Positions 18,403 through 64,000 of a stretch of DNA of 64,000 nucleotides are shown one piece after another. The DNA comes from Clavaria fumosa (lineage: Eukaryota > Basidiomycota > Agaricomycetes > Agaricales > Clavariaceae). The stretch spans positions 2,480,001 through 2,544,000 of the forward strand of contig OX637803.1 in the NCBI GenBank assembly GCA_951802425.1, read 5' to 3'. Under the pieces are notes generated by a model that did not search any database, was not told the origin of the DNA, and was given only the letters and a program-made list of their open reading frames with translations. Both the position numbers and the translations under genes were made by a program. Each line of letters opens with the position of its first letter. Position 1 is the stretch's first letter.

Positions 18403-20990
18403 ATGGCAGACCATGTTGCCCCGCCTGTAGCCCAACCTATGAGGCTTGACCTATCTGTTGCCCCCTTTGATGGGCAGAAAAGGAACTTCCGTATGTTCCT
18501 CTGATCACTTCGCCTCTTGTTTATGGCGAACCCGACCACCTATGCTATGGACCTGGTGAAGGTCCTCTTTGCTTTGAGCAAAATTACTGGAGATGGATTT
18601 GCTGCTGAATGGGCGAATATGAAAGTGGAAGAGATCCTGGGTAGTGGCGAGGCTGGAACCTGGGTGGAGTTTGTGGAGGAGATGAAGCAGGTGTTTGATG
18701 ACCCAAACAACCATGCGACTGCCCTTGCCGATATTGCAGGGTTGAAACAGGGTGCCATGACGGCACCAGAGTTCTTTGCAAGATTCGAGATGCTGTTCCG
18801 ACAGGCAGAGTTGAGTGCAGAAAAGGACTCAGGAATCCTGGTCCATTGGCTGGAGTTGAACTTGAGTAGGAGGTTGGTGGAGAGGATCTATGGTGTCTCC
18901 CTGATGCCAGAGACTTATGGAGAATGGAAAGTGCTGGCAGAAAGACTGGATGCCCAGCAAAGGCAATTTGACGCGATAGTCATGGAACGGACACTGCGAC
19001 CTGTGCAACCCACTGCGACCTTTTCGCGACCTGCCGCAGCCCTCTCACACCCTCTGAATGTGGCCATGGGCCATGGATGTGCCCCTGCTGATGAGAGACG
19101 TTGTTTCTGATGCCACCAGATTGGGCATGCCATCCGTTTCTGCCCCCTGCCTGACATGTGTCTGCAGGTCCCAAGAGCCTGAACCTGTGGAGTGCCAGGT
19201 ACCCCCCGAACAATGGAGGATTACCAGAGAGAGATTGCGTTGCTCCAAGCAAAACTGGAGCCACTTGAGAGAGAAAGGAGGACTCTGGCTGGAGAGAAGA
19301 GTCGTTCCAGCCCCCATTCCGTCCCTGTGCCCACAGCAAGTATACTGAAGTATACTATCTTGCAGCGGAGACATACCCGAATTGGGGCTGAGGTGAAAGA
19401 GGAAGTGAGACTGGCAGAGCACCCAACCAAGGTGCAGCCAGAGGTGGAGAAACGTGTGCCACGAGAGCTAGCCATCCAGGTGCACTTGGAGGCCCTCAGC
19501 ACTGGCAAGTGGGCTATGACGAAGGCCCTTGTCAACTCAGGATGCACCAACTGTTTCATGGGTTTGGAGTGGGTGAAAAGAGTGGGCCTGGAACCATCTC
19601 CCTTGCTGAACCCAATCACAATGTACAACGTGGATGGGTCACAGAACAGAGAGGGTAAAATCTGCTTTGGAATTGAGCTGCTGGTGAAGGTGGGCAACCA
19701 TCGTGAACAGGTCCATTTCCTGCTGGGAAAGATCCAATCCCACAAGGTCATCCTTGGGCCTGACTGGCTCAAGCAACACAACCCTGACATCAACTGGAAG
19801 AAGGCAGAGCTGAGCCTTACCCGCTGCCCCCCACAGTGTTCCCCATCCCCTCGAGCCCCTGCACCCCCGAAAACGAGTACCCTCGCATCTGCGAGTATTC
19901 TGGACACCTGTTTTCCCAACTCTGGCCCTACCCCTGATTGGCCCAGCCGCTACCCTTGGGTTTTTAGTGAAGCGAAGTGGGATGAGCTTCCCCGCTCCCG
20001 ACCAGACTTCGATATTAAAATTGAGTTCAAAAAGGACCCTGAGCACCTCTCCTCCAAGCTATACTCACTGACATGGCAGGAGATGGTGGAGATGAACTGT
20101 TGGGTGGATGAGCAGCTTGCTTCTGGACGAATCCGGCCCTCGAAATCCCCGTATGCCAGCCCCTTCTTCTTCAAACATGAGAAGGACAAGCTGCGGCCAA
20201 TTATCGACTACTCGAGGCTGAATGCACACCTGGTCAAGGACAAGTACCCCCTTCCCTGCATCCAAGACACAGTGGATGTGCTTAAGGGAGCATTGATCTA
20301 CTCTAAGATTGATGCAAAGGGAGGTTTCCCATCCATGCAGGTCTGGCCAGAGCACCAGCACCGCTGTGCCTTCTTGACACCTTGTGGACTCTTTGAACCT
20401 GCAGTTATGTGGTGTGGACTACAGAATGCCCCTGCTACCTTCCAACGCTTCATGAATCATGTGTTGAGGGAGGAGATTGCAGGAGGACATGTGAGAGCCT
20501 ATGCGGATGATGTCATTGTGTTTGCAGAGGACTTGGCTACACACTGGTACTGGATGGATCGAGTCTTGAGGAAGTTTGGAGAGAATGGGTTGTGTCTCAA
20601 ACTCAGTAAATGCGAGTTTGAGAAGAGTGAGATCATCTTCCTGGGGATGAAGATCTCTCACAACCGGCTAGAGCATGACCCAGCCAAGGGTGCAGCAGTC
20701 CGAGATTGGCCACGTCCTAGGAATGTGAAGGATGTCCAGAGGTTCAATGGGATGTTGAACTACCTCCACCAGCACATCCCGAATCTTTCTGCTCAGGCAA
20801 AGTCACTCTTCCGGCTGACTGGGAATGTTCCATGGAAATGGGAGGAGGAGGAGGAAGCAGCCTTCCGAGATCTCTGTCAGGCACTTGTATCGGCCCCGGT
20901 CTTGGCTCTGCCTCAGGACAAAGGGAGATGGAAGGTAGAAGGCAGATGCACTCTCCCAGAGACCAGACTATGGAGAGGTGGTGGAGGAGC
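18403..20990 (+). pseudogene. Gypsy-A gag-pol, truncated and internally deleted
   Basis: Gag starts at 18403 (MADHVAPPVAQPM). It is stopped at 18502-18504, where intact copies have Arg (FLRSLRL), and again at 19108-19110 inside the zinc knuckle (CF-stop-CHQIGHAIRFC). Protease, RT and linker read openly from 19192. The protease motif is NSG instead of DSG, and the RT motif is YADD where the intact copy has YVDD. After GRWKVE the sequence jumps to the segment encoding ADALSRRPDYGEM: the RNase H part, 336 bp in the intact element, is deleted in frame. Homology ends at about 20990, inside or at the edge of the right-hand inverted repeat, so integrase, chromodomain and the 3' LTR are missing. Confidence 0.88.
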
Positions 20991-21115
20991 ACCCCCTTCA
21001 GCACACCCACCCCCTATCCAAAAGGCCTAGCTGATTTTGACTGATGCCCTTTTTATGGGCCCAGCCGATCGTCGGCCGAGATATAGCTTTATAGGCTTGG
21101 CCGATCAACTTGATA
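20985..21115 (+). repeat. Right member of the distant inverted repeat pair
   Basis: CACCCCCTTCAGC through GCCGATCGTCGGCCGAGATA and TATAGGCTTGGCCGATC pairs with the reverse complement of 9100-9240. It directly abuts the truncated gypsy-A copy. Confidence 0.7.
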
Positions 21116-22255
21116 TACCAAAATCCTGCCAGGCATACAGGGATCCCATGGTAATGATGATACCCTTTCAAAAGGGCTGGCTGACACCCATTTTAGGAAC
21201 CAGTGTAAAGGGTCTGAAGCACCCTATTCAAACATTTCTCTCACTTACATGACAAATTAGATCAAAAAGCTGGGGATAAAGCATCTGCACAAGATTAGGA
21301 AGCAAAGATCAGATGTGCTATTTGATAGACATGTAAATTACAAGGTCATCTGCATCATTTGAGACTCCTTATCATCTGAGACTCCTCCATGACAACTTAA
21401 CATAGTTGGGTGAGATGAAAACAAATATGCCTTCCAATAGGTCTTCAAAGGGTAGAAGCAAATGTACCAATCAAATATGCAATGGAGCCATTATAAACTA
21501 GAGTGAAATGTGGTTGTCAACTGAGTCAGGATATTCTTTGGAAAAGGATGGGCCTTAATATCCTTTCTGAAGAGTATTCAAATCCACTTTGAATACGTGT
21601 TCTAAAGGAGAATGTATTGTTATTGTTCAAATATTCTTGCAATGTAGAAGTTGTGCATGTGAGTCTGTTATCACACCTTGTGATTATATCATTCTGTGGC
21701 TGTGCCCGGGATCCCAGGTGTGACAGTCACACTGTGACCAACTCTGCATAAGAGTATTCAAATCCACTTTGAATATGTGTTCTAAAGAGGAGGAGAATGT
21801 ATTAGAATTGTTCAGGATGAGCCTTTGTACATAAAAATGATCCATTGTGGTCTAGAATTAAATTGAGGAAGTGATGCAAGGCAGTATATAATCTGATATT
21901 CCTTATAAAGAGACAAACCATTATAAAAGGACCCACATATGTGGTTCAATGGGGCACAATCCACCTTCAACAATCCAGTGGGAATAATGAAGGAGGATAT
22001 TATTATCAGATATTGCTTATAAAGGTATGAATCTTCTGAACAACATGATGCATCTAATAACAAGACTCAAATATGCTTTCTGATAGGCACAGGTTCTTCA
22101 ATGATCTAATGCAAAGCTGACTGATTCAGGAAGTGGATCATTATCTGAAATTCCTTAGAAAGGGCCAAACTATAGGCACCACAAAAGGACAGATTGCAAA
22201 GAATTATTAGGACCTAGTGAGACATCATGCAGATTGATATGCACTACAAATGACT
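21116..22255. repeat. AT-rich non-coding tail of gene copy 2
   Basis: No gene. Contains a direct repeat around GAGTATTCAAATCCACTTTG (near 21570 and 21751) flanking a copy of the CCCGGG/GTGACAGTCAC module at 21701-21739. 22178-22255 matches the end of the window in reverse complement. Confidence 0.6.
21701..21739 (-). promoter_or_regulatory. CCCGGG + GTGACAGTCACAC module
   Basis: TGTGCCCGGGATCCCAGGTG followed by TGACAGTCACACTGTGACC; the same module as at 24516-24554 and 61622-61662 and in the same orientation as the 24.5-kb one. No gene follows within a sensible distance, so this one may be a remnant. Confidence 0.55.
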
Positions 22256-24165
22256 GTCACCAGTGTCAAGGATGATTTTCAGTGCTTCACCCTTGGTCGC
22301 AGTAGTACCCGCTTCTTGGCATCCATGGAAGCCCTCTCTCTAGCCCTGGTCCTATATTGCTTAGACCTCTCCTCCTCCTCTTCATCATGGTATACCCTTT
22401 TCCTCTTGGGCAGGCTGGGCCCTGCCTCCTTGTGGATCTGAACTGCCATATGAGCAACAAGGCCATGAACATCTCTATGCACACCCACATCATCCCACAT
22501 CCCTTGTTCTCCTGTCCAAAATTCCATTATCTGTATTGTATTTATGCTGGACTGGAAAATTCTCACCTGGATGTTGCCTGTCATGGTCACCTTCTAACCC
22601 ATTCCCCTCAATACCATCACCCCTTCGCATATCCACCTGCTTGCTCAGACAGGATTCTTCTGCATCACTATCAGGGGGAACAGAAGCCTCAACCCTATCA
22701 TCATTATCCCCATCATAGATGCACCCCGAATCACTGTCTGACTCATCTGAGCCAATGTCCTCACTATGTGCATTTCAAATGTGCATTGATGATGATGATG
22801 ATGATGATAATGATGATATGAGAACACTCACTCAGTACTGATATGGACAGGCTGGACCTCTCATTCTTTCCCCTTCTTGAGGGAGAGCCTCTTCACCTCT
22901 TTGTCAGATGACAATGATGGCTCTTGTTCAGGTTGCTGGTGATAGTTGACTAGATGCCTTGATGGCTTCCCTCTCTGGTGCTGTGGGAGAACATATTGAA
23001 ACCGTAATATTTTCTGGCCCAAAGTCTGTCAGTGATGCAGGAAATCACAGAGCCTTCTGACATCGACATATTGCATTTTTGAAGGCTCGTGAATTTGCAT
23101 TCCCTCTGGAAGGTATTCATGAGGAATAAACTTGTGTGGAGCATCAGCTATCAGTTGCCAAGGGACAGCAACCTTCTTGTTTTTTGTTGTATTGCCTACA
23201 TGTTGGAAGTAACTTGTCAGACTTGGACTATTGAGCAAGACAGACTCACAATAAGTGATAGTAAAAAATGACCGCAAAATTTCTTTGAGTTGTGCGAGTG
23301 GTAGGTTGAGTTCCAAAGGAAGAATGGGCCATCCCTCATGATCTGTTGGCAAATCCCATGGCACACTAATATCTCTTCCTTTCCTTGATAGCATCTCCTC
23401 TTCATCAACAAAAGGCTTCCTTTGTAACTCATCTGAAATCCTGTCAGTACTTCCCCAACCTTGGCTTCACATCATTTTCTCACCATTCCATGTCTCAGCC
23501 AAATATTTATCCCACTCCTCCCACACCTCACAACCAACTTTGTGAAATTGTACCTTGAACCCACTAGTCACAGGTCCAGGGGTCTGAATCCTGGAGCATG
23601 TATACAGAGAATTAATCTGATGGACCAGTGGGCATGCAATTGAGACTCACTTTGCCTTCTTTATATTCCCTTTCTCATCTTGCCAGCCAGTCAACATAAA
23701 TAATTCAACACCCATCTGCTCCTTTGCAAAACGGGCAAACTTCAGGGCCTCATGCATAAATTTGCGAGAAGCCAATCTCCAAGCAACATTTCAGCCATTC
23801 TACTGGTTGAGAAAGGTAAATTAAAATACTCACTCTCTCTGCACAGGAACTGGGACAGGCTCCCTATTCCATTTCTCCACCAACCCCATGTATTTCTGAT
23901 GCTTCTCTTGTGTTAGCTCTTGACAAATCTCAGTCCTAGCACGACGATATGAGTTGAGGAACTGGACTGATCCCCTCTCAGCATTTGACAACTCCTGGGC
24001 CCTGGCATTGATGATCCCCTTCTTGCACTGCTCCACAACATGCTGGAGGGTCCACCTCTGTCGTTTGCTGAACTGAAGGCCTTGGTTGCCATCATCTTCT
24101 GAACCAGAAGACTCCTCCCCTCCACTGACAGCCCTGCGGTTATTGTGGAGCCAATTGCGAATTTT
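22256..24165 (-). pseudogene. WLxNxR repeat-family protein, copy 2, exons 2 onward
   Basis: Reads from 24165 down. Exon 2 begins after a TTCATAG acceptor and carries the same WLxNxR helix as copies 1 and 3. Next come WTLQRVVEQ, ARTEICQELTQEKHQKYMG, KEQMGVELFMLTGWQDEKG, the PWDLPTDHEGWPILPLEL block and the basic tail KKRVLLRPRVKH ending at 22279. It matches copy 3 (61987-64000) in reverse complement over 2,014 bp with no net length change. A TGA at 23029-23031 replaces the CGA (Arg) that copy 1 has (LHH-R-QTLGQ). The first exon is not upstream in this orientation: it lies next to it on the opposite strand (24318-24485), so this gene cannot make the normal transcript. Confidence 0.82.
22780..22815. 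repeat. GAT microsatellite
   Basis: About ten GAT units with one interruption inside gene copy 2; the matching tract in copy 3 is at 63361-63392. It encodes or borders the acidic linker. Confidence 0.85.
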
Positions 24166-24191
24166 CTATGAACAGACAAACATCAAATCAA

Positions 24192-24515
24192 CCTCAGCAA
24201 GTCACAGTCACAACGCGTGACAAGTGACTCACGTGAGCCAAGTTATTTTCTCATGTGACACACCACTTCTTGCTTCCCAACAACGCCACTGCTTTATCAG
24301 TTAGGCTAGCAAAGAAAATGACACGGTGGACGACCCCAGAGTATACCAAAATACTCACAGAAAGTCTTGTAGCCTACAGACAGGCAAACTCAAAAGACCG
24401 CCTCGAAATTGTCAAGCAAATCAAAGCGAAAATCAAGGATTCAGCTGAGCAGGACAACAAATGTGTCCCAGAGGATCTTAGCACCGTAACCTATGCATTT
24501 TATGTGTCTCCTGAG
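24192..24515 (+). other. Inverted 324-bp promoter/exon-1 segment of copy 2
   Basis: This block matches 61663-61986 on the same strand (constant offset 37,471). Both flanks match the 61-kb locus in reverse complement (coordinates sum to 86,178 at both edges: 24191/61987 and 24516/61662). It therefore represents an exact inversion of 324 bp. It contains the proximal promoter and exon 1 (ATG 24318, exon to 24485, GT donor at 24486). Its ends carry a 5-bp inverted repeat, CTCAG/CTGAG. Copy 1 has exon 1 in line with the rest, so the 61-kb order is ancestral. Confidence 0.93.
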
Positions 24516-27769: not shown

Positions 27770-29525
27770 TCAGGCATTGAAACCGCGCCTCTGTCTCACA
27801 TGGACCATCGATTCCATGTCTGAATTATCTGTTGTATTGATTAGAAAATCTGCTGCGTCTAGATGAAAGTATATAATGAAACACATACCATCATGCGGGG
27901 AGAGGGGCCTCTTAGAACATATTGTCCCCAACTCAGAATGGTCATCTCCTGCATCACTGTCCTCTTGCTCTTCTTCAGAGACCTGTTCATAAATTGGATC
28001 GTCCAGCAAATCTTCCAGCTCTGTCCAAACCTGAGTATTGTCATGGGGAAATATGTGGAAGACAGGGCCATCCCAGGAGAACCAATTACCAGCACTGGTA
28101 TCGTCATGGAGCAACTTCTGGAAGGCATCCAGAAGGTCTTGCCAGTCTTTCCGAAGGTGCTTAAGCACTGCTGCAATCACCTGCTGTGCAGTGATTGTGA
28201 GTGGTGCCTTTTTCTCCCACCTTTTCATGTAAGAACAAAGTGCCGCGCCAAACTGGATGAGCAATTTGTAGAAGAGATATGATGGGTTCACCCCTTGACC
28301 ACCAATCTCAAGAATGTATCGTTCGATGAACCAGCTCTGGAAGATGCGGTATCGCCACATCGCAACGTTTTGCTCTTCAAGTATTTCAGGTGGTGGTTTC
28401 CTCCCATGTGACTTGAGGCCAAGGGCTATTGCAAATTCAAGCATGTTTCCCACCATGATAATATTGAGGAGTCCATGTCTTGTTGTGACATTGGGGATGT
28501 GGGCAAGTGCCTCACCAAATGCTAAAACAATTATCAGATGACATACATAATGATGGAGAGATTCTACCATATTTGGATTTCCCCATGACATAGTGCTCAA
28601 CCCAGACCACCATCATCTTGCACAAGTATGTGGTTGTCGATTGGTGCTCTTGATTGGTGATTATCGGGTTGAGCACAAATGTATGCAGGGCTGAAGCACA
28701 GCTGCAAGCTATCGTGGATGCGGAATAAAAGTGCCAGCCGTAAACAATTGTCGGCTCTGGGCCAAGCACAAAATGGAGTGTGCCAGGACGCATGAAACTG
28801 TAGGATTGTCAGTAAATATTGCAACTCACAAAATATCTCCTGTCTTCAGGTGTATAGCCTCCGCACATAAAAATTCTTTTCCGGTGCTACAATCACCCCA
28901 ACTGAGGGGGAAGGCATGCGTCGAAAAGATATTGCTGCGATAGTCATAGTCTTCTGCGTCTGTACGGCGGCGCATCACCACCCACCACTTTGACCCTGAC
29001 ATGACAGTTGAAACAACCGCAAGGCCAACATCATCAATATGGGGCATGCTGATGGTCCCACCAGTGGCTGCAATGCCCCAGATCAGGTCGTCTTTGTCAG
29101 GTTGGTTTGCGAAGCCATCCATCTTTTGGGTTTGGTGGCGTGCCCACTCATGAGTTGCAAAAGCACTGATTTAGTTATTGTTTCAGTTGTCATGTGTCAG
29201 AGCAACAAATGGGACATGCCTGAATCGAGGTGGTGGAGGGAGGCTGAGGCTTCCCATCGGGAAGTCAAGGCCATTTAAAATCCGTCATTTTGTAACATCA
29301 CGTGTTGACTCCAGCAAATCGTGGAGTGTCCCAGTGCAGAGCAGATTTGCATCAGAGTGCTTTTGCATCTCTGCAACTATAGAAGCTGACTTAGATGAAT
29401 CAACTTGAAAAATATTTTAGACTCACCTTGGAACACACATTCCTGATGTAGAGGAGCCAACGTTGATAATCCCTCCTCATCAAAGTCGAGGGTTGAAATT
29501 GGCGTATTCGTAATAAGAATATGTC

Positions 29526-36257: not shown

Positions 36258-36280
36258 AGCCCTAACCCTAACCCTAAGCA
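36258..36280. repeat. Interstitial telomere-like tract
   Basis: Three CCCTAA units in a row (GCCCTAACCCTAACCCTAAG), followed by GCAGGGCT, which partly pairs with the flanking AGCCCT. TTAGGG is the common fungal telomere repeat. The short tract inside a repeat block suggests a healed break or element insertion. Confidence 0.85.
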
Positions 36281-37134: not shown

Positions 37135-38709
37135 ATGGCTCGAAACAAACAAACAGCACAGAGAAGTACCGGCGGTCGCGCTCTCCGCATTGTCCCAGGG
37201 TCAGCTGTATCCACAAGAACGACAGCTACTTCTACAGCGCTGGTTAGACCAGAATTTGCTAGTGAGGGTGAAAATGTGAGTATTCGCCTTTGCTCTGAGC
37301 ACTGGTACAAAACAATAAACTTTTTCCACAGTTCTGCTACATGTGCCTTAATGGTGGTTTTCTTTTTGTCTGTGATTACTGTGCTCGGGCGCTATGCACA
37401 AAATGCCTCACTGTCCCGACTTCGATCGACACCGAACACCTCAAGTTCATGTGTCTCACCTGCCATGCTCGGTCTTTCAAAGGACCCACCCTCAGCCCAT
37501 ATTATGTGAGCATTGATTTACTTATTCTGTTTTGTTCTCTTATCTTTGCATTGTAGGGGTTCTATTTGACAAAGGGCCTCGACATCATCAACGGGAAGCC
37601 CGACATGGCAAGATTGCGACCAGCGTTTGCACAACCTCTCAAGGTAGTAGGCAATTTTCAAATGACTGCAAATTCTCATGTCAGCAACAAGGGACTACTT
37701 GTCTTGCACTTTCTCCTCAAAGGAATGGATCATGCTGGAATGCCGGCAAGACTTCTTGCCGACTATATGCGGTCGTATCTTGGAGATGAGGTGTTGCAGT
37801 ATGAAGAGGTTGTGTTCGATCTTGCCAATGACATCCTTATCAATTTGCATGCAGAGTACATGAAGAGCTTGGTGCATAAGATTCAGTATGAGCTTTCTGT
37901 TTCATATCATATTGTACTAACCATTTTCACAGAAATAAACATCCCCGTGTCATAATTTTTATTACGAATCATTCTCATGATGACACTGGTGACCTCTTTC
38001 TTTCACCTGGGTTATGCACCCAGGTCAAACCTGTGAGTTTGTTTACAATGCATCTGCCTCCAGCTAATTTGAAGCCTTAGTTTCTTGACGTCCTCCTCCC
38101 ACCTGCCCACTTGACATTCCTCAAAGGGGCAGAGGTCACATTGTGGATGATGTCCTGTGGAACATTAGTCAAGAACTTCCATAGTTATTCAGAGCTAGCA
38201 GAGGCAACCAAGCAGTAAGACAATAACTAGCACTCTCAATTTGCTAATTAATCAAAATTTCCAGCCTTTTGATTTCGGATGTCATCGCATTCACAGCCGC
38301 TGAGCTGCAACCTTGCCTTACGGCAGGGTTTGTAGTTGGCTACGCCCAGCAAGTTCTGGTGTAGGGATTCCCTCTGGAGGACTGTCTCCGGTGGCTCCTA
38401 CCTGCGACATCAGCAATTTGTCACCACACCGACATCGTCCATCTCCAGGCAAGAGAGGGACAAATACGTGGTGCTCGTTATATGTGGGTTCACCCTGAGC
38501 TTCGCCCTTGGGGAAATCAGCTCCCAGTGCAGTGCAAGGCTTGTGGCTGCATCCGCTCCTGGGTCTCATCTACTGGTAATGCTGGGGCGAGAATATTTGC
38601 TTGTCGAAATCCGCGGTGCACCAACAAACTTATCTTCAATGCACCTGAGGAGAAAGTTTGGCTGGGAGGCGAAATTTTTGGAGGGTGCTGGCTAATTATA
38701 AATCAACAG
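37135..38709 (+). CDS. Histone H3-tail mimic with PHD/ADD-like zinc finger
   Basis: The first residues, MARNKQTAQRSTGGRAL, copy the histone H3 N-terminus nearly position by position: A1, R2, K4, Q5, T6, A7, S10, T11, G12, G13 and A15 are kept; T3 is N, R8 is Q, K9 and K14 are R. Exons 37135-37275, 37332-37505, 37557-37885 and 37933-38032 join in frame through GT...AG introns, followed by 38081-38214 and a last exon from about 38263. Exon 2 encodes a finger CxxC-x8-CxxC-x4-CxxC-x15-CxxC (CYMCLNGGFLFVCDYC...), like the ADD/PHD modules that read H3 tails. The C-terminus has another CxxC...CxxxxC cluster (CKACGCIRSWV...CRNPRC). An in-frame TAG at 38362-38364 splits the last exon; reading resumes in the same frame to 38709. 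Role unknown; a chromatin decoy or self-binding reader is inference. Confidence 0.78.
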
Positions 38710-38756
38710 TAGTGTAAAGCATCTGTTCCTTCACGTATGAAGGAACATGGATATCT

Positions 38757-39721: not shown

Positions 39722-40544
39722 AAAGAAGAATAGAAAAAAAAGGAGTCATGTGACCTTGTTGACTGTCAAACCCCCTAACATAGATTTGCGAATTCAGCTC
39801 ATCCAATGGCCAAAAGGAAGCATCAAGAGACTGACTTATCTGGCTCAAACAAGAGGACCAATTATGCTCCTTGTGATGCGTATGTATCATCTAACTGAAC
39901 TGAGTTGATGTCTAATGCCCACCCAAGGCCATCTACTTTGAAAGGCACCATGTGGAGCCTCTTACGCACTATGATACGCAAGCATGTAACTCATAAAATG
40001 CAAAAGCCACTCAAGACAAGGCAAGTCATCAATTTTTAATCCTGTTAAGCCATCTAAAATTGAAGGAAGGTTGAAAATTTGGGGCAAACTTGAGGAATTG
40101 AGAGTTGCCATGGATTCCAGCAACAAGAGTAATGCTGACGACCAACCTGTGACTCAAGAAGAACTACAACATGTAGTTCTAACTGTGGCCTATGCCCTCT
40201 TCAACCCAAGTGCGTTAGCTTAAATGACTTGCAACAATCAGCTGAACACTTTGACCATTCAGTTCAAATGGAATGGGACATAGATCGGTTTGCAGACAGT
40301 GTGAAACATATCAATCTCATAGCCAAATGCAGCAATAATTTCGATGCAGCCTTGGTGAAATTCAGCAAGTATTTCAAGCAGCCTCAAGACCTCGGTGTTC
40401 AAGAGGAACCCTGCACAATAATTGATAAGCACGGTCGTATCTTGCTGTAGGCTCTGCCTGGAATTCTTTCTAGTGCTAGAGTGGTGAGATAAGGCAATCA
40501 ATTTTGAACCATATTTTCTAACCAATTTACAGGAGCAGTACAAC

Positions 40545-40846
40545 TATCAGACTGGGTCTCACACAACTTAAGCACAACTTAAGCGTAAGGTCATGACGAC
40601 AATACTAAGATAAGGGGAAAAGAGTACAAAAAAGGAAAAGCGAAAGTACTTATAGCGAACGCTTCGGCACTTGCCGACTTTCCCACGCTCGGACCCTCGG
40701 ATCACGTGATGCGCCCAGGCCCCAGGTCATGTGATCTTACATGATTACATAATCCGACCCAGCCACAGGTCATGTGACCTTCCAACAACCCTCCCCAGTT
40801 TCTCCACAACTGCACTTTGGGATGGCTTACATAAGCGATCCTAACA
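40545..40846 (-). repeat. Gypsy-A 3' LTR
   Basis: 302 bp, plus-strand ends TATCAGACTGG and GATCCTAACA. Contains GGTCATGTGACC and ATCACGTGAT palindromes. Confidence 0.93.
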
Positions 40847-40950
40847 TCACCCCCCTCTTAAGGCTGGGCGTCCCAACCAGCTAGCTTGGCCTTGTCAGGG
40901 TGAGCAAGGAAGAAGTCCCGGAGAAGCAGTGCCACATTGGTGAGGTTCCG

Positions 40951-41448
40951 TCATGGCTCCCAAGTGTTCTCCTCTACAGGGTATCCCAACCACTTCACCA
41001 GGTATCTCACTCCATGCCCCACCTTCTTAACATCAAGGATTGCCTCCACATCATACTCCAGGTGGTCATCATCAATCGTAGGGGGCGGAGGGGGAGGCAG
41101 GTTCTGAGAAGGGAAGGAAGGGGGGTGGTATGGTGTCAACAGCAACTCATTGAAGACCCGATGGATGCGCCAGGCCCGAGGGAGCTTGAGGCGATACCCA
41201 GCAGGTCCCACCTTCTCCTCAACTGCAAAGGGGCCTGCTCTCTTGTTGTCAAGCTTTTTACAGGGCCGGTCCATCTTCAAGTTTCTAGTATCCAGCCAGA
41301 CCAGATCTCCCTCAGAGTACTCCCGACTTGGGCGTTTCCCCTTATCGTAGCTCTTCTTCATCGCTGCCACCGCTTTCTCCATTGCCTCCTTGGCTGCTCT
41401 TCGGGACTCCGTGAGCTTAGCCATCCACTCGTCCGCTGCCGGGTTCAC
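40951..41448 (-). CDS. Gypsy-A integrase C-terminus with chromodomain
   Basis: Reads MNPAADEWMAKLTESRRAAK, then the GPF-type module (LDNKRAGPFAVEEKVG) and a chromodomain (ILDVKKVGHGVRYLVKWLGYP, split here as VGHGVRYLVKWLGYPVEENT). Chromodomains direct integration toward marked heterochromatin in this group. It is in the same polyprotein as the preceding integrase core but out of frame with it as the sequence stands. Confidence 0.85.
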   Translation of the reverse strand: MNPAADEWMAKLTESRRAAKEAMEKAVAAMKKSYDKGKRPSREYSEGDLVWLDTRNLKMDRPCKKLDNKRAGPFAVEEKVGPAGYRLKLPRAWRIHRVFNELLLTPYHPPSFPSQNLPPPPPPTIDDDHLEYDVEAILDVKKVGHGVRYLVKWLGYPVEENTWEP

Positions 41449-41484
41449 CTCAGAAGGTGGCTGGAGCCCCCCATTCCATGGGTG

Positions 41485-42301
41485 TCATCCATAATTGAGG
41501 AAGAAAGGTGTCTGTCCTGTCGCTGAGTGCTCACGATTATTAAGAGCAAACTCCGCAGTGGACAACCATTCAGCCCAGTCATCCTGGAGATGGTCCACGT
41601 AAGCCCGGAGATAGATCTCCATCTCCTGGTTCGCCCATTCCGTCTGTCCATCAGTCTGCAGATGAAAGGCAGTACTTGGATTTGCCTTTACCCGGATCAT
41701 GGAGTAGAACTCCTTCATGAAGCGGGACACGAACTGGGACCCCCAGTCACTCACAACCTTGTGAGGGACCCCCAGTCACTCACAACCTTGTGAGGGACCC
41801 CCAGTCACTCACAACCTTGTGAGGGACCCCCAGTCACTCACAACCTTGTGAGGGACTCCATGGTCACGAAACACTCGATCCCGGAGGAGACGCACCACTC
41901 CAAGTCCTGTGAGGTCAAGCCCGATCGCTTCGAGCAGTGTCCGTTTTGTGAATTTGTCGACAATAACAAGGATGGCATTATGTCCATGGGAGAGGGGGAG
42001 GGGACCGACTATGTCCCATGAGATCACCGACCAGGGACCATCGGGCACCAGATGGGGGTGCAGTGGGGCAGCACACTTGGTACGGTCGGGCTTCGTCCGC
42101 TGGCATGTCTCACACCCCTGGGCATACCGATCTGCATCTTTTACCATGTCCAGCCACCAATAACCCTTCACTAGTGCTGCTCTCAACTTCCGGGGCCCAG
42201 GGTGTCCAGCAGCAGGGAGGTCATGCTCAAACTCGAGAATGGCCTCACGAGCTCCTAGGGGGACCCAAGTGACTATCCCCTTTCGCCAGAGTCCAGCACG
42301 A
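41485..42301 (-). pseudogene. Gypsy-A integrase core, interrupted by 29-bp repeats
   Basis: Has the zinc-binding CETCQRTK, the first catalytic Asp in SVISWDIVGPLP, the second in VVSDWGSQFVSRF and the Glu region GQTEWANQEMEIYLRAY. The second-Asp site is disrupted by a 29-bp unit repeated four times (41745 to about 41860). Three extra units add 87 bp, which keeps the overall frame but brings a stop inside the repeat. The usual SDRGS reads SDWGS, a CGG-to-TGG change. Confidence 0.87.
41740..41860. repeat. 29-bp tandem repeat x4 in the integrase gene
   Basis: AGTCACTCACAACCTTGTGA starts at 41745, 41774, 41803 and 41832, each exactly 29 bp apart. Other gypsy-A copies have one unit at this place. 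Confidence 0.96.
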
Positions 42302-42303
42302 TC

Positions 42304-44748
42304 TCATGTCCACTCATCACCAAGCTCCTCTGGCTTCTGTATGTGTACCGCGCTATTTTTCTGGAGTAGCGTCTCCATTTCCGATGTGAATGACACACGG
42401 ACTTCCGTTTCCGGGAAAACCTGCACCGGTGCATCCTCCTCCACCATCTCTCCATAGTCCGGTCTCCGGGAGAGTGCATCTGCCTTTGTATTCGACTTGC
42501 CAGTGCGATACTTTATCTCAAAGTCAAAGCACTGGAGCTCTCCAACCCAACGAACCTGCCTCGGCTTCAGCTTCTGGGGCTTCCGGAAGTACTGGAGGTT
42601 TGCATGGTCCGTCCAGATCTCGATCGTCTCCTCTGCTCCAATGAGGTATGCTCGCCACTCGCGAAGTGCCCGAATCACAGCCAAGAACTCCTTGTCGTAC
42701 ACATCGTAGTTCTTCTCAGCTGCAGTGAGGGCCTTGGAGATATAGTCAACAACTCTCCAGGTTCCATCCGTCTGCTGCTGCGAGAGCACTCCACCAGTTG
42801 CCAGGTTGCTTGCATCTGTCTCTACCTTCCATCTCCCTTTGTCCTGAGGCAGAGCCAAGACTGGGGCTGATACGAGTGCCTGGCAGAGATCTCGGAAGGC
42901 TGCTTCCTCCTCCTCCTCCCATTTCCATGGAACATTCCCAGTCAGCCAGAAGAGTGGCTTTGCCCGGGCAGAAAGATTCGGGATGTGCCGGCGGAGGTAG
43001 TTCAGCATCCCATTGAACCTCTGGACATCCTTCACATTCTTAGGACATGGCCAATCTCGGACTGCCGCACCCTTGGCCGGATCATGCTCTAGTCTGTTGT
43101 GGGAGATCTTCATCCCCAGGAAGATGATCTCACTCTTCTCAAACTTGCATTTACTGAGTTTGAGACACAACCCATTCTCTCCAAACTTCCTCAAGACCCA
43201 ATCCATCCAGTACCGGTGTGTAGCCAAGTCCTCTGCAAACACAATGACATCATCCACATAGGCCCTCACATGTCCTCCTGCAATCTCCTCCCTCAACACA
43301 TGATTCATGAAGCGTTGGAAGGTAGCAGGGGCATTCTGCAGTCCAAACCACATGACAGCTGGTTCGAAGAGTCCACGGGGTGTCAGGAAGGCGCAGCGGT
43401 GCTGGTGCTCGGGCCAGACCTGCATAGATGGGAAACCTCCCTTTGCATCAATCTTAGAGTAGATCGACGCTCCTTTAAGCACATCCACTGTGTCTCGGAT
43501 GCGGGGGAGGGGGTACTTGTCCTTGATCAGGTGTGCACTCAGCCTCGAGTAGTCGATGATTGGCCGCAGTTTGTCCTTCTCATGTTTGAAGAAGAAGGGG
43601 CTGGCATACGGGGATTTTGAGGGCCGTATTCGTCCAGAAGCAAGCTGCTCATCCACCCAACGGTTCATCTCCACCATCTCCTGCCATGTCAAAGAATACA
43701 GCTTGGAGGAGAGGTGCTCAGGGTCCTTTTTGAACTCGATCTTAATATCGAAGTCTGGTCGGGAGCGGGGAAGTTCATCCCACTTTGCTTCACTAAACAC
43801 CAAAGGGTAGCGGCTGGGCCAATCGGGGGTAGGGCCAGAGTTGGGAAAACGGGTATCCAGAATACTCGTGGATGTGAGGGTACTCGTTTTCAGGGGTGCA
43901 GGGGCTCGAGGGGATGGGGAACACTGTGGGGGGCAGCGGGTAAGGCTCAGCTCTGCCTTCTGCCAGTCGATATCCGGGTTATGCCACTTGAGCCAGTCAT
44001 GCCCAAGGATGACCTTGTGGGACTGGGTCTTTCCCAGCAGAAAGTGGATCCGCTCCTGGTGGTCACCAACTCTCACCAGCACCTCTATCTCATATCGGAC
44101 CTTTCCATCCCTGTTCTGTGTCCCATCCACATTATACATGGTGATTGGGTTCAGCAGGAGAGATGGCTCCAGTCCCACTCCTTTTGCCCACTCCAAATCC
44201 ATGAAGCAGTTGGTGCACCCTGAGTCGACAAGGGCCTTCATTGTGGTCCCTTTGCCAGTGCTGAAAGCCTCCAAGTGCACCTGGATGGCTAGCTCTCGTG
44301 GCACATGTTTCTGCACTTCTGGCCGCACTCTGGTTAGGTGCTCTGCCAGTCTCACTTCCTCCTTCACCTCAGCCCCAATTCGGGTATGTCTCCGCTGCAA
44401 GATAGTATATCGGGGTATACTTGCAGCAGGCACAGGGACGGAAAGGGGGCTGGCACACTTCTTCTCCCCAGTGGGAGTCCTCCTCTCTCTCTCACACAGC
44501 TCTATGCAGGCTCGGAGCCATGCAATCTCTTTCTCATATCCCTCCGCCATTTGGGGGGCACATGGTGCTGCCCGGGTTTGGGCCCTTGGGACCTGCAGAC
44601 GCGTATCAGGCAGGGGGCAGAAACGGACAGCATGGCCAGTCTGGTGGCATCGGAAACAACATCTCTCATCAGCAGGGGCCCATCCTCGGGCCATGGCCAC
44701 ATCTGGAGTACACAGCAGAGGGGTCACAAGAGGTCGCGAAACGGTCAC
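42304..44748 (-). CDS. Gypsy-A protease, reverse transcriptase and RNase H
   Basis: Open for 814 codons. Zinc knuckle CFRCHQTGHAVRFC near the start, aspartic protease DSG (MKALVDSGCTNCF), ILGHDWLKW, then RT with IIDYSRLSAHLIKDKYPLP, FMNHVLREEIAGG and the YVDD active site (VRAYVDDVIVFAEDL), and RNase H (VETDASNLATGG, YDVYDKEFLAVIRALREW, IWTDHANLQYF). It ends at 42304 with a TGA where the next codons continue into the integrase linker (DEWT-stop-DRAGLWRKG), a likely CGA-to-TGA change. Upstream it is in frame with gag across another TGA at 44755-44757. Confidence 0.93.
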   Translation of the reverse strand: MTVSRPLVTPLLCTPDVAMARGWAPADERCCFRCHQTGHAVRFCPLPDTRLQVPRAQTRAAPCAPQMAEGYEKEIAWLRACIELCERERRTPTGEKKCASPLSVPVPAASIPRYTILQRRHTRIGAEVKEEVRLAEHLTRVRPEVQKHVPRELAIQVHLEAFSTGKGTTMKALVDSGCTNCFMDLEWAKGVGLEPSLLLNPITMYNVDGTQNRDGKVRYEIEVLVRVGDHQERIHFLLGKTQSHKVILGHDWLKWHNPDIDWQKAELSLTRCPPQCSPSPRAPAPLKTSTLTSTSILDTRFPNSGPTPDWPSRYPLVFSEAKWDELPRSRPDFDIKIEFKKDPEHLSSKLYSLTWQEMVEMNRWVDEQLASGRIRPSKSPYASPFFFKHEKDKLRPIIDYSRLSAHLIKDKYPLPRIRDTVDVLKGASIYSKIDAKGGFPSMQVWPEHQHRCAFLTPRGLFEPAVMWFGLQNAPATFQRFMNHVLREEIAGGHVRAYVDDVIVFAEDLATHRYWMDWVLRKFGENGLCLKLSKCKFEKSEIIFLGMKISHNRLEHDPAKGAAVRDWPCPKNVKDVQRFNGMLNYLRRHIPNLSARAKPLFWLTGNVPWKWEEEEEAAFRDLCQALVSAPVLALPQDKGRWKVETDASNLATGGVLSQQQTDGTWRVVDYISKALTAAEKNYDVYDKEFLAVIRALREWRAYLIGAEETIEIWTDHANLQYFRKPQKLKPRQVRWVGELQCFDFEIKYRTGKSNTKADALSRRPDYGEMVEEDAPVQVFPETEVRVSFTSEMETLLQKNSAVHIQKPEELGDEWT

Positions 44749-44754
44749 GGCAGG

Positions 44755-45396: not shown

Positions 45397-45399
45397 AGG

Positions 45400-46259: not shown

Positions 46260-47116
46260 ACAACAGAGGGTGTGAGCACATTAGCAAGCATCTGGACAGA
46301 GACTTGCCAAGTAATGCTGGGCGTACTACGGGATTTGTCGAACCTGAAGGTGGAGGTCGTTTTGGTGCCGGAATCAAGTCCTTCTCTCCTGGTTGGTTTA
46401 TGCAAGGCCAGCAACAGGTAATGCTGTCACATAACTACCTTGTTTTACTGTCTCAATGTCAACAGCTCAGTGATAAACTGCATGCTTCGACCAGCTTGCA
46501 GACTGCATATGGTTCCTCCTTCATTCAAGGAATTGCACATGCAGAGAAGCTGTGCAATTCAATTATGGCCTTGGTCGCACCAGAACAATATGACTTTGGG
46601 AGCTCAGCCATTGACCAAGTGCAATCTGGGGTGGCAATGGCAAAAACATACAAGAATGTGCAGCTTTGGCCCTCAATCTTTACGGCAATGGAAGTCATCG
46701 TGAACAGGAAGACTCCTGCACATCGCGACAAGGGAGGCTGCCTGGCTCACTACAATCTTTTGGTTAGTGCTGGAACTCACAAGCAGGCACACATGACACT
46801 CCAGGAACTTGGTGGTCAAATTTCCTACAATCCTGGAACTGTCCTTGTATTTGTGGGTAAGGTTTTTCTGCATGAAGTGATGGATTGGGAGGGTGGCGAA
46901 CGATTGTGCATTGCTCATTTCATGAAAGATTCTGTTCATGACCATCTACAGATACCACGACCAACTTACCCAACTCAAAATATGTACATGCAATTGTTGA
47001 CCTAGGTACATTTATATAGAAACTGGTCACTTCATCACTGTTGCTGAACTCCAGGAAAAGAGCTTCTGTCTGGGTGAAATTGCAGTGCTTTGTATCCCCA
47101 CAATTGATGTGGCTAG

Positions 47117-50100
47117 CTAAGATTTGACTTGTGGTAGACTCAAAATATCACCCCAGGCAGTAGATGCAGCCTCCTTCATCCACTTCCATACCATAGCCTG
47201 CTTCTCAGTATAGCTTCTGTGACCATGCAAGCACTGTGTTTCTGCCCAGACTCTCCTCCTCTCCCATTCCCTTTGTTGGTGTGAATACCATGCCAATGCC
47301 CATGTCATTTCGTGTCTCACCAATAACATCTCTTCTTCCCACCTGTCATATCGAGCCTTTGCTCTCAGCCAGTTCACCCTCAATACTTATTTCAGTCAGC
47401 ATAGAAACATATGAGGAAGCTAACATATTGAAGAACTCACTTTCATTCATCAAAGGGTTCCCAGCATTCCTCCCAGTCCCAATCCTCCAGAACCAGGGTA
47501 ATGCATCATTTCGCTGCCCAATCTGGTTTTCCTCTGCCACATCTGTGTTAACTTTCAAGTCCGTGTCTTGGAGAACTTGAAACTTCTCAAGTACATGTGC
47601 AGGTGCTCCCAGGCTTATCAAGGCAGACCTAGCACACTTGTACCTCCCAGTATACTCCTTGATCTTGTCATTCACTTGGAGGAGTTCTGAGCGGCTCCTG
47701 GTCTTGCTTGCCTGGGTTTTGGATTTTCAAATTCGTATCTTGTAAAGCAACAACTTGTGTCCGATTGCCAGTCTGAGCCCTTCAAGTGACTCCTCTGCTT
47801 GTACCACCTGCAGCTGTATTTCTTGATCCACAAATTTTTCCCACCCATTTTTCAAGCAGAAGTCGTGGCCAAACATAGAAGGCATCCAAAGCCTGTTCTG
47901 TATGAAATTCTGCTCGTCCATGTCCAGGTCTTCCACGTCACCATCTTGAGGATCATCCTGTGTTTCTTCTCTAGGTCCAGTGTCTTCTGGCATGGTCTCC
48001 TGGTGTTGGTCATCCCACTCGAAATCTCCCAGAACAGTATAGACTTGTTGGTTGAAATTTTCAATTTTGGATTGAAGTGCATTCTGTTTATCAATAATGC
48101 TTTGCTTCTGAGCTGCTGTGAGTCTCCTCTTCCGGGTTAGGTCAATTGAACATCTGGAGGCTCATTGGCATGTGTGTAGGCTTAGCATCTTGGATGTCAC
48201 TTACTGAATATGTTCCAGATCCATGCCTTGAGTCAGGAATGATGTAATCCCCGAAGGTAATCCAGTTTCTTTTTCCCTAGCTGAGAGAGTTAGCCTGATA
48301 TCTGCAAGAGTTGGTGCTTCATATTGAAATTTTCAGATTTCTGTCTCTAGTGATGAAGTGAGGAATATCAACTCACTCTTTTCCAGTTGTATATCGTATA
48401 TTTTGAGGGCTTCCCCTCGATTTTGCAGAGCAATCTGCTCTAAATTCATCCATTCTTCTCTTGCTTCTGATCCAATCCCTTCATTCAAATCATTGAATGC
48501 AATCTTGGTTTGTCGAAGACCTTCTGTTGCAGCATTGTACTTCGCCAGGAGGGCCTTCACTAGATTGCATATTCAGTTATCCCAAATTCGCTTAGAAAAT
48601 TTTGATACCCACCAATACCCACTGTTTTCTTCCAGTTTGAATCTCGCATGTAGTCGTCTAATATTTCATGCCGATGTGCCTTGCTCATGGCCTGTATGCT
48701 GCTGGAGACCTTGTTCAGGTTTGACCACAGAGTCTCCAAAATCTCTCCATCTTGTTGGCCAGCACCATGAACAAAGTTCAAGGAGAACAGTGGGAAACAG
48801 GAACGAATGTGTGCCCCCAAGTGAAATTTACCCACTGCAGGTATGATTGTTGTTGAAGGGTGCACAGACAGATACTGGCTCCCCTGGACCCTCTTGTTGA
48901 AATTGCGAATCCACTGACAACAGATATCATAGATGACTAAAGTCTCTGTCATCCCTTCTGTCCTATATTTGATAGCTTGGCAAATTGCATAGTCAATGTT
49001 GATGTGACTGGAAGAAAAAGCAACAAGTATTTGCAACCAAATTCAAATATACAGACATTTTCAGCTCACCGCTCGCCCTTCTGGAAATCAACCACAGAAT
49101 GTGGCACGAAACACCCATGCCGTGAGCAGGCACATGCCCCTATTCCCGTGGCTTCCAGGTGACTTGAGTGAGCATTTGACTGGCTTATAGCCCTGTGATT
49201 TGAGCATTTTGATTTCTGTTGTAGGAGTGAATCTCAGGTGACCAGTCCAAGTTAGACACCTACATCTCGAATCTCTAAGCCTTCAGAGAGGTGATGTTTA
49301 TAATTCACCTCCTCTACAATATATGCCTCTCCATTTGCTAACCTAACATCTTTCTCTGCTCTTCGCATTTTCAAGTGTTCTGCTGAGAAATTTCCATCAA
49401 CAACCAGGGATCTGCGGAAAAGCCATCTGGCATTTCTTTATCAGGGTTCACATGCATTCAATGAAAACAAGACTTACTGATCTGGTTGACTTTGCCAGTT
49501 GTTAGGAAGATTAATGCCAGGTTGAGGGCAAGCAGGACAAAACAGTGCTAGGTCCCCATTTCCTGTTTTCCTATCCAAGTCGTGCCCAAAACCAAATCGT
49601 TTTCTATTTGTCAAGTCTCGCCATTGACGAGATACTCTCATTAGTTCACAGTATCGATCCTAATGCCAGCAGCTTGTCAATACAAATGGAGGGAAAAGGA
49701 GAGGAGGATACTAACTGGTACAGTGTCTGGGAAAGCATTAGAGGTAAATCTCTTTAGTTTAGAGTATAAGGCGCCTGCTGAGGTTTTACACTCCATAGCC
49801 TCAATATGGAAGTGACCAAGGACTTCAAATGTGAACACTGTTTGAGGTTTCGTATAGCTGGCAGGAAACAGACGGTGTTGAAGCAGCTGTATATGGTGGG
49901 AAGGAGCATTTGAGCATTGGCAGTAATAGATGCTCCGTTGGCACACTCCATTTGAGTGTACAACTAGAAGCAGACTTGCACCTGGCCTATCCAAATTAGG
50001 TTCATTTCTGGTATCTTGCTCCCATTGATCCTTCTCCCTGTACCCTTCCTCTTTGAATTCTGGACACGGTGAGCCTTGATGCCCTAAGTGAATCGCCAGT

Positions 50101-61217: not shown

Positions 61218-61621
61218 CATCAAAATGTGCCATTGCTTCACTTCAGAAGCAATATCGTATATATATAATGCAGAGAAGGCTTCGGATTGAGAGGACTGGA
61301 GTTCACGCGAGAGACGTAGTGTATTCAGTAGTGTAATAAAGATCACAAGGATAGCACATACCTGGAGTTCACGCGAGAGACGTGAAGCTCCAGATACGGC
61401 AGTACGAAAAATCCTCACGGCCCTGAGGCCGCTGCGCTGGCAAGCACGTAACCAATAGGAGTTTAAACTAAACGTACTAGTCCTCTTTCAGATAGACCAT
61501 TAGCCGAACCTTCGTCATCACTCTGGCTGTAAGATGTGACTGCTGTGGAATTTTGTACATTAAAAAAATACACAAGGCTCACATATTCAAAGGACATTTT
61601 GCATATTGTTATGGAGAGTTA
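61218..61621. other. Segment right of gypsy-B
   Basis: No gene. CTGGAGTTCACGCGAGAGAC occurs twice (61296 and 61362, 66 bp apart). From about 61545 the sequence matches the reverse complement of 24555-24630. Confidence 0.55.
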
Positions 61622-61662
61622 CAGTCACAGTGTAACTGTCACACCTGGGCTCCCGGGCACAG
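61622..61662 (+). promoter_or_regulatory. CCCGGG + GTAACTGTCACAC module, copy 3
   Basis: CAGTCACAGTGTAACTGTCA, CACCTGGGCTCCCGGGCACAG, ending 126 bp before the ATG at 61789; the left boundary of the 324-bp inversion falls exactly at its end. CACGTGA sites follow at about 61702 and 61723. Confidence 0.65.
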
Positions 61663-61788
61663 CCTCAGCAAGTCACAGTCACAACGCGTGACAAGTGACT
61701 CACGTGAGCCAAGTTATTTTCTCACGTGACACACCACTTCTTGCTTCCCAACAACACCACTGCTTTATCAGTTAGGCTAGCAAAGAAA

Positions 61789-63899
61789 ATGACACAGTGG
61801 ACGACCCCAGAGTATACCAAAATACTCACAGAAAGTCTTGTAGCCTACAGACAGGCAAACTCAAAAGACCACCTCGAAATTGTCAAGCAAATCAAAGCGA
61901 AAATCAAGGATTCAGCTGAGCAGGACAACAAATGTGTCCCAGAGGATCTTAGCACCATAACCTATGCATTTTATGTGTCTCCTGAGTTGATTTGATGTTT
62001 GTCTGTTCATAGAAAATTCGCAATTGGCTCCACAATAACCGCAGGGCTGTCAGTGGAGGGGAGGAGTCTTCTGGTTCAGAAGATGATGGCAACCAAGGCC
62101 TTCAGTTCAGCAAACGACAGAGGTGGACCCTCCAGCGTGTTGTGGAGCAGTGCAAGAAGGGGATCATCAATGCCAGGGCCCAGGAGTTGTCAAATGCTGA
62201 GAGGGGATCAGTCCAGTTCCTCAGCTCATATCATTGTGCTAGGACTGAGATTTGTCAAGAGCTAACACAAGAGGAGCATCAGAAATACATGGGGTTGGTG
62301 GAGAAATGGAATAGGGAGCCTGTCCCAGTTCCTGTGCAGAGAGAGTGAGTATTTTAATTTACCTTTCTCAACCAGTAGAATGGCTGAAATGTTGCTTGGA
62401 GATTGGCTTCTCGCAAATTTATGCATGAGGCCCTGAAGTTTGCCCGTTTTGCAAAGGAGCAGATGGGTGTTGAATTATTTATGTTGACTGGCTGGCAAGA
62501 TGAGAAAGGGAATATAAAGAAGGCAAAGTGAGTCTCAATTGCATGCCCACTGGTCCATCAGATTAATTCTCTGTATACATGCTCCAGGATTCAGACCCCT
62601 GGACCTGTGACTAGTGGGTTCAAGGTACAATTTCACAAAGTTGGTTGTGAGGTGTGGGAGGAGTGGGATAAATATTTGGCTGAGACATGGAATGGTGAGA
62701 AAATGATGTGAAGCCAAGGTTGGGGAAGTACTGACAGGATTTCAGATGAGTTACAAAGGAAGCCTTTTGTTGATGAAGAGGAGATGCTATCAAGGAAAGG
62801 AAGAGATATTAGTGTGCCATGGGATTTGCTAACAGATCATGAGGGATGGCCCATTCTTCCTTTGGAACTCAACCTACCACTCGCACAACTCAAAGAAATT
62901 TTGCGGTCATTTTTTACTATCACTTATTGTGAGTCTGTCTTGCTCAATAGTCCAAGTCTGACAAGTTACTTCCAACATGTAGGCAATACAACAAAAAACA
63001 AGAAGGTTGCTGTCCCTTGGCAACTGATAGCTGATGCTCCACACAAGTTTATTCCTCATGAATACCTTCCAGAGGGAATGCAAATTCACGAGCCTTCAAA
63101 AATGCAATATGTCGATGTCAGAAGGCTCTGTGATTTCCTGCATCACTGACAGACTTTGGGCCAGAAAATATTACGGTTTCAATATGTTCTCCCACAGCAC
63201 CAGAGAGGGAAGCCATCAAGGCATCTAGTCAACTATCACCAGCAACCTGAACAAGAGCCATCATTGTCATCTGACAAAGAGGTGAAGAGGCTCTCCCTCA
63301 AGAAGGGGAAAGAATGAGAGGTCCAGCCTGTCCATATCAGTACTGAGTGAGTGTTCTCATATCATCATTATCATCATCATCATCATCATCAATGCACATT
63401 TGAAATGCACATAGTGAGGACATTGGCTCAGATGAGTCAGACAGTGATTCGGGGTGCATCTATGATGGGGATAATGATGATAGGGTTGAGGCTTCTGTTC
63501 CCCCTGATAGTGATGCAGAAGAATCCTGTCTGAGCAAGCAGGTGGATATGCGAAGGGGTGATGGTATTGAGGGGAATGGGTTAGAAGGTGACCATGACAG
63601 GCAACATCCAGGTGAGAATTTTCCAGTCCAGCATAAATACAATACAGATAATGGAATTTTGGACAGGAGAACAAGGGATGTGGGATGATGTGGGTGTGCA
63701 TAGAGATGTTCATGGCCTTGTTGCTCATATGGCAGTTCAGATCCACAAGGAGGCAGGGCCCAGCCTGCCCAAGAGGAAAAGGGTATACCATGATGAAGAG
63801 GAGGAGGAGAGGTCTAAGCAATATAGGACCAGGGCTAGAGAGAGGGCTTCCATGGATGCCAAGAAGCGGGTACTACTGCGACCAAGGGTGAAGCACTGA
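61789..63899 (+). pseudogene. WLxNxR repeat-family protein, copy 3
   Basis: Exon 1 (61789-61956, 56 codons, MTQWTTPEYTKILTESLVAY) is in line with exons 2 onward, as in copy 1. Exon 2 from about 62012 carries KIRNWLHNNRR, the homeodomain-helix-3-like signature, then WTLQRVVEQ and AHIIV-side helices. The PWDLLTDHEGWPILPLEL block (62784-63149) and the basic tail ending at 63899 follow. The exon-1 donor is AT (61957-61958) where copies 1 and 2 have GT, so splicing of intron 1 should fail. A TGA at 63147-63149 replaces the CGA of copy 1. It is a mirror copy of 22178-24191 without net indel and continues past the window edge in non-coding sequence. Confidence 0.82.
63361..63392. repeat. ATC microsatellite, copy 3
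   Basis: Counterpart of the 22.8-kb GAT tract, about ten units. Confidence 0.85.
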
Positions 63900-64000
63900 A
63901 AATCATCCTTGACACTGGTGACAGTCATTTGTAGTGCATATCAATCTGCATGATGTCTCACTAGGTCCTAATAATTCTTTGCAATCTGTCCTTTTGTGGT

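Follow-up and report, generated by a model that had tools for sequence, protein, structure and literature searches.

A KDZ transposon gene that joins a histone H3-like N-terminus to a putative histone-reading zinc finger

The window analysed here, the 64,000-nucleotide stretch C10:2480001-2544000 of the 48.8 Mb Clavaria fumosa genome, contains a gene at 37135-38712 whose product mimics the N-terminus of histone H3 and carries a reader-type zinc finger in the same polypeptide. The mimic is borne by a DNA transposon and, as judged from codon comparisons, is under selection; its target is putative. These observations suggest that the element disguises itself as a histone against the silencing machinery. 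If true, transposons attack silencing at the histone-reading step besides the DNA-methylation step, and the methylation escape of TET-bearing KDZ elements in mushrooms becomes testable.

An H3-like tail directly follows the initiator methionine

The gene at 37135 opens with MARNKQTAQRSTGGRALRIVPG, and its N-terminus, MARNKQTAQRSTGGRALR, is identical to histone H3 1-17 at 12 of 17 positions. An earlier note on this DNA had proposed the start codon at 37135, the peptide itself, a last coding base at 38709 and 11 of 15 identities to H3 after the Met; all four are borne out, with the stop codon occupying 38710-38712. As a control, every open 17-mer that starts with ATG on either strand of the window was compared with H3 1-17; the 37135 peptide is one of these 1,425, and the other 1,424 gave 0-5 matches. 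Ten tails, L040 and L042 not among them, were combined into a profile, whose best 60 of 134 PDB matches were all histone H3, N-terminally aligned (best E 6.6e-7). A chance match of the N-terminus was rejected on the basis of these two results, 12 matches against at most 5 and the recovery of H3 by the profile. The H3-like N-terminus right after the initiator Met is beyond chance and conserved. The likeness to H3 is confined to the N-terminal 17 residues: the histone fold that a true H3 variant should possess was not found in the rest, a Pfam scan of the full 441-residue protein returning only PHD (E 6.8).

The gene model, predicted from GT-AG splice sites alone, comprises six exons, all on the forward strand. 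Exon 1 (37135..37275) encodes the H3-like tail (residues 1-18, 37135-37188), as placed by profile and H3 comparison, and a variable linker. A C8 PHD/ADD-like finger is found in the very next exon (37332..37505), not two exons later as the earlier note had it. Exon 3 (37557..37885) begins a further domain, with no match in Pfam and none of note in the PDB, exon 4 (37933..38032) contains a conserved ITNHSHDDTGDLFLSP stretch and exon 5 (38081..38214) a conserved TLWMMSCG stretch. Both stretches are kept in the L038/L053 subfamily, and the Cys-Gly of the latter also occurs in L047/L054. Exon 6 (38265..38712) encodes the C-terminal part with two CxxC-like pairs, and it is here that the window copy is interrupted by an in-frame stop (38362-38364). 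The suggestion that this copy is decaying and that others were worth comparing was well founded, as other copies are open at that site.

An exact motif search with the N-terminal codons located 18 copies in the genome; exon 3 together with its flank, used as a DNA query, located 20 loci. When the single gene model was applied in full to five other copies, four were open across six exons and encoded the 441-residue product. A 16-copy alignment was also made, leaving out L012 and L014 (interrupted or diverged) and the copies found by exon 3 alone. Seven other copies span the full gene; four of them are open, one of these with an altered splice site and the others with intact sites, and three are broken. 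The eight partial copies divide into two open ones with intact sites, three open ones with an altered site and three broken ones. Three telomere-like CCCTAA repeats lie at 36260-36277, about 0.86 kb upstream of the tail gene, and each of the seven other copies checked has two or three such units at 0.82-0.89 kb upstream. No homologs were detected at E 1e-3 in a protein database of 5.8 billion, a set that appears poor in fungi, and phage records yielded none either. Viral contigs gave one 23-residue match, L058, with an E of 3e-4 relative to candidates. Together these collections offered no convincing relative from another species.

The tail is joined to a finger of the PHD/ADD class

The earlier note had described an N-terminus resembling H3, fused to a finger of the ADD/PHD type with the spacing CxxC-x8-CxxC-x4-CxxC-x15-CxxC; the join is confirmed and the pattern is exact. 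The eight Cys provide the two-zinc ligand set of a PHD/ADD reader, and seven of the eight are invariant in seven aligned sequences, with one Cys lost in L044. The fifth ligand is a Cys, which we take to be as in ADD fingers. The finger falls below the cut-off of the Pfam PHD model (13.7 of 24 bits), and its PDB relatives were identified with an N-terminal 100-residue query: CHD4 (1.2e-5, two fingers summed), PHF21A (2.2e-4), TRIM66 (2.6e-4), AIRE (2.7e-4), SP140 and ATRX (1.9e-3). The same query also matches the fingers of Rabphilin (1.5e-3) and ZMYND11 (3.2e-3), the former not known to us as an H3 reader, and with a full-length query the best PDB E for the finger is only 1.1e-3. AlphaFold models of exon 2 and exon 3 (pLDDT 51 and 43) were too low in confidence for use. 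On sequence grounds we assign the window finger to the PHD/ADD class, as a putative reader of the H3 N-terminus. According to the available portions of the sources, readers of the unmodified H3 end include BHC80/PHF21A, AIRE, CHD4, TRIM24 and TRIM66 (PMC3471955, PMC6979384); H3K4me0 is the form read by the fingers of BHC80/PHF21A, AIRE-PHD1, CHD4 and TRIM24, with H3 contributing an extra beta strand (PMC3471955).

The residue two positions before the first Cys is D in CHD4 PHD1, PHF21A, TRIM66 and AIRE, compared with Asn in the window finger and Gly in the model of L038, which was spliced by eye. In known readers the acidic residue before the first Cys sits near H3K4. The window and L038 fingers thus lack the acidic residue typical of a K4me0 reader, so that their contact with K4 may be weak; a strong K4 contact by the window finger appears disfavoured.

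A motif scan caught eight tailed fingers (window, L038, L040, L044, L047, L048, L052 and L057), and each has a [ND]GG strand motif ahead of the second zinc knuckle; NGG is also present in the cut-off fingers of L049, L050 and L051. Five of the 22 listed finger loci without an identified tail were read, namely L039, L041, L045 and L046, which form one family, and L043. None has an H3-like start and none has the GG motif, the corresponding residues being LNGNKP in the family of four and LATLRP in L043. The earlier note had held that homologues retaining the finger without the peptide would speak against its reading. Such homologues do occur, in two paralog families, but their fingers also lack the GG motif. 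The joint absence hints that tail and finger work together, although with two untailed families at most this is suggestive only.

The tail is a family trait maintained across diverged subfamilies

All family evidence comes from one genome. Searching all six frames with residues 1-218 produced 170 matches, and our grouping of those listed, with tail-exon rows left out, yields at least 96 finger-gene loci, many of them diverged subfamilies. Tail queries hit 53 and 41 places, corresponding to 79 distinct H3-tail loci, so that the genome holds at least 79. A finger match lies directly downstream of 49 of the 53 tail matches; three of the other four have a listed finger on the opposite strand at a distance of 6-13 kb, and one has no finger nearby. 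Among the matches listed, 74 of 96 finger loci carry a tail (72 by search, with L052 and L057 added by reading).

Other tails read include MARTKQTPKKSTGGRALR, MARSKQTAKRSTGGQAVR, MARTKQSAKRSSGAPAMR, MPRTKQLASRSTGAPCVR, MPRIKQTASRPTGTLCVR, MARTTQTPKKTTDSRSVR and MARTRQSVKRSSGACATR. The tails share 8 to 13 of 17 residues with H3, and in 11 tails three to six of H3 residues 1-6 are identical. Across nine distinct tails (L040, L049 and L042 left out of the position table), R2, Q5 and R17 are constant, G12 is nearly so and S10/T11 are mostly kept, with T3 and residues 13-16 variable. What stays recognisable in the tail is the end with which PHD-type pockets make contact. L040 and L042, both of decayed appearance, deviate at R2 and R17, and in the subfamily of the window gene single copies show variation at residues 12, 13, 14 and 17. 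K4 is present in seven of the nine tails compared with K9 in two, the other seven having Arg, which indicates from the residue counts that K4 is favoured over K9 without a strict rule. The earlier note had read the tail as changed only at K9 and selected for one modification state. That K9 is lost more often than K4 stands; L038 (with its relatives L040 and L042) and L052 retain K9, and K4 is changed in L052 and L057, so that the proposal does not hold in a strict form.

Selection on the tail, which had likewise been anticipated, was assessed over the 17 tail codons of seven subfamilies. In all 21 pairs pN (0.11-0.41) is below pS (0.50-1.10), values that rest on 17 codons only and include some sequences from decaying copies. 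Subfamilies whose fingers are ~40-60% alike still keep the tail, and tail pN is below finger pN in 8 of 10 pairs when the first 22 finger residues are compared; two 56-residue finger comparisons with L038 were discarded as out of register by one residue. The codon comparisons identify the tail as a family trait under purifying selection.

A KDZ transposon carries the gene

Comparison of the window with five copies reveals a shared unit of ~26 kb, complete in four of the five. The four complete copies end in CACCCCC...GGGGGTG (one of them starts 17 bp further in at the left), and 7-bp target duplications, read by eye, flank each of these four: TGAGGCT, TCTGCAT, TGGTTGC and ATTAAAC. The fifth copy has no left end, and the right end of the window copy falls outside the window. 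Inverted repeats of 3,662 bp, 99.7% identical, bound the copy on contig C11, by comparison with which the left terminal inverted repeat was placed at 20990..24197 (forward strand), interrupted here after 24197. The right repeat, placed by copy comparison at 61524..64000 on the reverse strand, runs off the window. A KDZ transposase exon (PF18758, E 5.1e-30 in the C11 copy) lies at 48563..49018 and beside it a CxC2 cysteine cluster (PF18803, E 2.5e-27 in the same copy) at 49680..49895, both on the reverse strand. Transposase domain, cysteine cluster, 7-bp duplication and CA..TG ends are those of a KDZ element, a name that reportedly goes back to Iyer et al. 2014 (PNAS). The tail gene is an accessory (passenger) gene of this KDZ DNA transposon, which is putatively of Kyakuja type; the reading given in the earlier note had not included this setting.

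A TET/JBP gene is located downstream of the tail gene on the forward strand, with an upstream exon at 40211..40486, assigned by position and frame, and a catalytic exon at 46427..46954 (PF12851, E 1.8e-18 in the C11 copy). On the reverse strand a JmjC-like gene (28578..29122) was recognised by eye only, from the pattern MPHIDD ... SGSKWW ... RPGTLHFVLG; Pfam and PDB searches gave it no support. Should it be real, the element has two dioxygenases and a histone mimic.

The association between tail and transposon extends across the genome. A KDZ search gave 185 matches, 150 of which were used, and a TET/JBP search gave 64. A listed KDZ match lies within 15 kb of 57 of the 79 tail loci, compared with a random mean of 6.8 (maximum 15, 300 trials), and a TET match within the same distance of 36 of 79, compared with a random mean of 3.4 (maximum 11, 300 trials), the sizes of contigs C5, C12 and C13 being estimates in this test. 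The tail gene seems to accompany KDZ elements more widely than TET does, given that 26 tail loci have a KDZ match and no TET match nearby; a further 17 have neither within 15 kb. In the 16 aligned gene copies, C>T/G>A changes at CpG account for 207 of the 267 differences from the majority. Such an excess is the mark of methylated DNA, and from this decay the KDZ elements with the tail gene were probably methylated, silenced targets.

Tailed and untailed-type paralogs are paired 4.4-8.9 kb apart (start to start) at six places, on C10, C2 (two), C7, C1 and C5, which looks like a two-gene cassette in one kind of element.

A possible mechanism and its alternatives

We propose that removal of the initiator Met before the Ala or Pro at position 2 would expose a free A/P-R-x-K-Q end like that of real H3, and that this end would serve as ligand for an H3-N-terminus pocket. 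The co-occurrence of tail and GG motif makes the protein's own finger the first candidate for that pocket; binding would occur within one molecule or from one to another, nucleosomal H3 would compete, and the tail could thereby gate or multimerise the protein on chromatin. Together with the TET/JBP enzyme of the element, the tail-finger cassette might keep the element unsilenced. From the sequence evidence we put the probability that the tail binds the protein's own finger at roughly 45%. A bolder version, which we hold to be rather unlikely as a whole, has the KDZ cassette supply a counterfeit H3 end and a fitting pocket, self-gated or polymerising, that displaces H3 and blinds the H3-guided methylation of the host, with TET oxidising existing methylcytosine and the range of subfamilies, most of which retain K4 and have lost K9 amid variation at nearby residues, reflecting an arms race over the histone code.

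The tail could instead act as a decoy that occupies host readers and writers (a putative UHRF1-like PHD, COMPASS, K4me0 readers) and so blocks maintenance methylation or silencing. The available portion of PMC11187062 offers a precedent in PAF15 and DPPA3, which compete for the H3 ART site of the UHRF1 PHD; that the element encodes TET, an enzyme belonging to the DNA-methylation pathway, and shows CpG decay suggestive of a methylation target also fits. A decoy role leaves the association of the GG strand motif with the tail in the same protein unexplained, and we consider it rather unlikely. The recount of K9 leaves the odds of the decoy and of binding to the own finger unchanged, since neither rests on K9. 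That same motif link is equally unaccounted for if the tail serves mainly for nuclear import or localisation, its H3 form borrowed without mimicry of the histone code. Its basic character and N-terminal position fit, as does the binding of H3 tails to importins; the constancy of Q5 and R17, the near constancy of G12 and the mostly kept S10/T11 are not expected of a simple basic signal, making this explanation improbable.

A role as protease or peptide-processing enzyme, with the tail as pseudosubstrate or propeptide, was considered on account of caspase/CHAT-like motifs seen by eye in the C-terminal half (37933-38214), TNHSHDDTGDLFL and MMSCG. His and Cys-Gly occur at matching places in L038/L053 and the distant L047/L054 paralog. 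Pfam gives no match, the PDB profile of the C-terminal domain yields only seven weak matches (E 0.23 and up), none meaningful, and the exon 3 structure model is unreliable, so that we assign this role a low probability. The host H3 genes bear on the possibility that the first exon of an H3 gene was captured and persists in the tail as a neutral relic. Three host H3 loci were found, and a fourth, weaker match set may be centromeric H3. The two loci read (L055 and L056) both encode the canonical MARTKQTARKSTGG start; exon 1 of L055 ends inside the codon of G13, and L056 has a further intron after K4. The similarity of the tail to H3 is strongest at residues 1-13, near the span of L055 exon 1, as a relic would predict. 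It extends, however, to A15 and R17, the tail codons are quite different from those of host H3, which makes a recent capture unlikely, and pN is below pS in every pair. These three points together indicate a maintained tail, and the relic, already disfavoured, is very improbable. Binding of the tail to the protein's own finger is our preferred reading.

Relation to known systems

Histone mimics occur in viruses. The nearest working analogies to the tail protein would be the DNMT3A ADD switch and the UHRF1 ligands PAF15 and DPPA3. We know of no H3-like tail in DNMT3A and, unlike DNMT3A, the tail protein has no methyltransferase domain that we could find. The likeness is that the ADD finger of DNMT3A reads H3K4me0 and, in autoinhibition, is engaged within its own protein, as the available portion of PMC10393158 describes. 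Histone mimics are also known from a few host regulators and, in the part of PMC11187062 at hand, PAF15 and DPPA3 (VRT in both) bind the UHRF1 PHD at the site used by the ART of H3; in egg extract mouse DPPA3 prevents UHRF1 from loading and DNMT1 from being recruited, an effect that human DPPA3 has only weakly or not. What they have in common with the tail gene is a short motif resembling H3 ART, in competition with H3 for a PHD pocket and tied to the control of DNA methylation (PMC11187062, in part). PAF15 and DPPA3 are, however, host genes with a three-residue motif as described there, in contrast to a transposon-encoded tail that shares 8 to 13 of 17 residues and has the finger in the same protein.

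TET-bearing Kyakuja elements are known from Agaricomycetes (Kojima 2025, PMC12730594), and by the available text of that paper they share with the window element the KDZ transposase, the TET/JBP gene, the CA..TG ends and the 7-bp duplications. Two Laccaria Kyakuja families described there have these ends and duplications and no inverted repeats, compared with 3.66 kb repeats here, a descriptive trait and not a defining one. A search of the same text gave no use of 'PHD' or 'zinc finger' and four of 'histone', and two 'histone' passages concern silencing and SET methyltransferase genes. VANDAL/MuDR regulators and captured SET methyltransferases resemble the tail protein as accessory proteins aimed at host epigenetic control; among the VANDAL/MuDR-type anti-silencing proteins as described in this portion of PMC12730594, none is an H3 tail mimic. 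In our searches of open-licence papers we found no transposon-encoded histone mimic described. The natural variants of a 17-residue H3-like peptide with its finger form a ready set for learning which H3 residues a pocket requires.

Insertions and neighbours of the window copy

The window copy spans 20990 to past 64000 and is broken by nested insertions. The TET/JBP gene is split by a nested insertion at about 40545-46259; this LTR-retrotransposon-like stretch of 5.7 kb (40573-46262) is flanked by 277-bp direct repeats (99%). Two further segments, 24198-27642 (3.4 kb) and 53152-61211 (8.1 kb), are absent from the copies compared and are apparently nested insertions as well. At the left window edge, 1595-2902 encodes a second, different CxC2/KDZ transposase (73-75% identical), and the paralogs at C10:2464260 and C10:2470545 may belong to its element.
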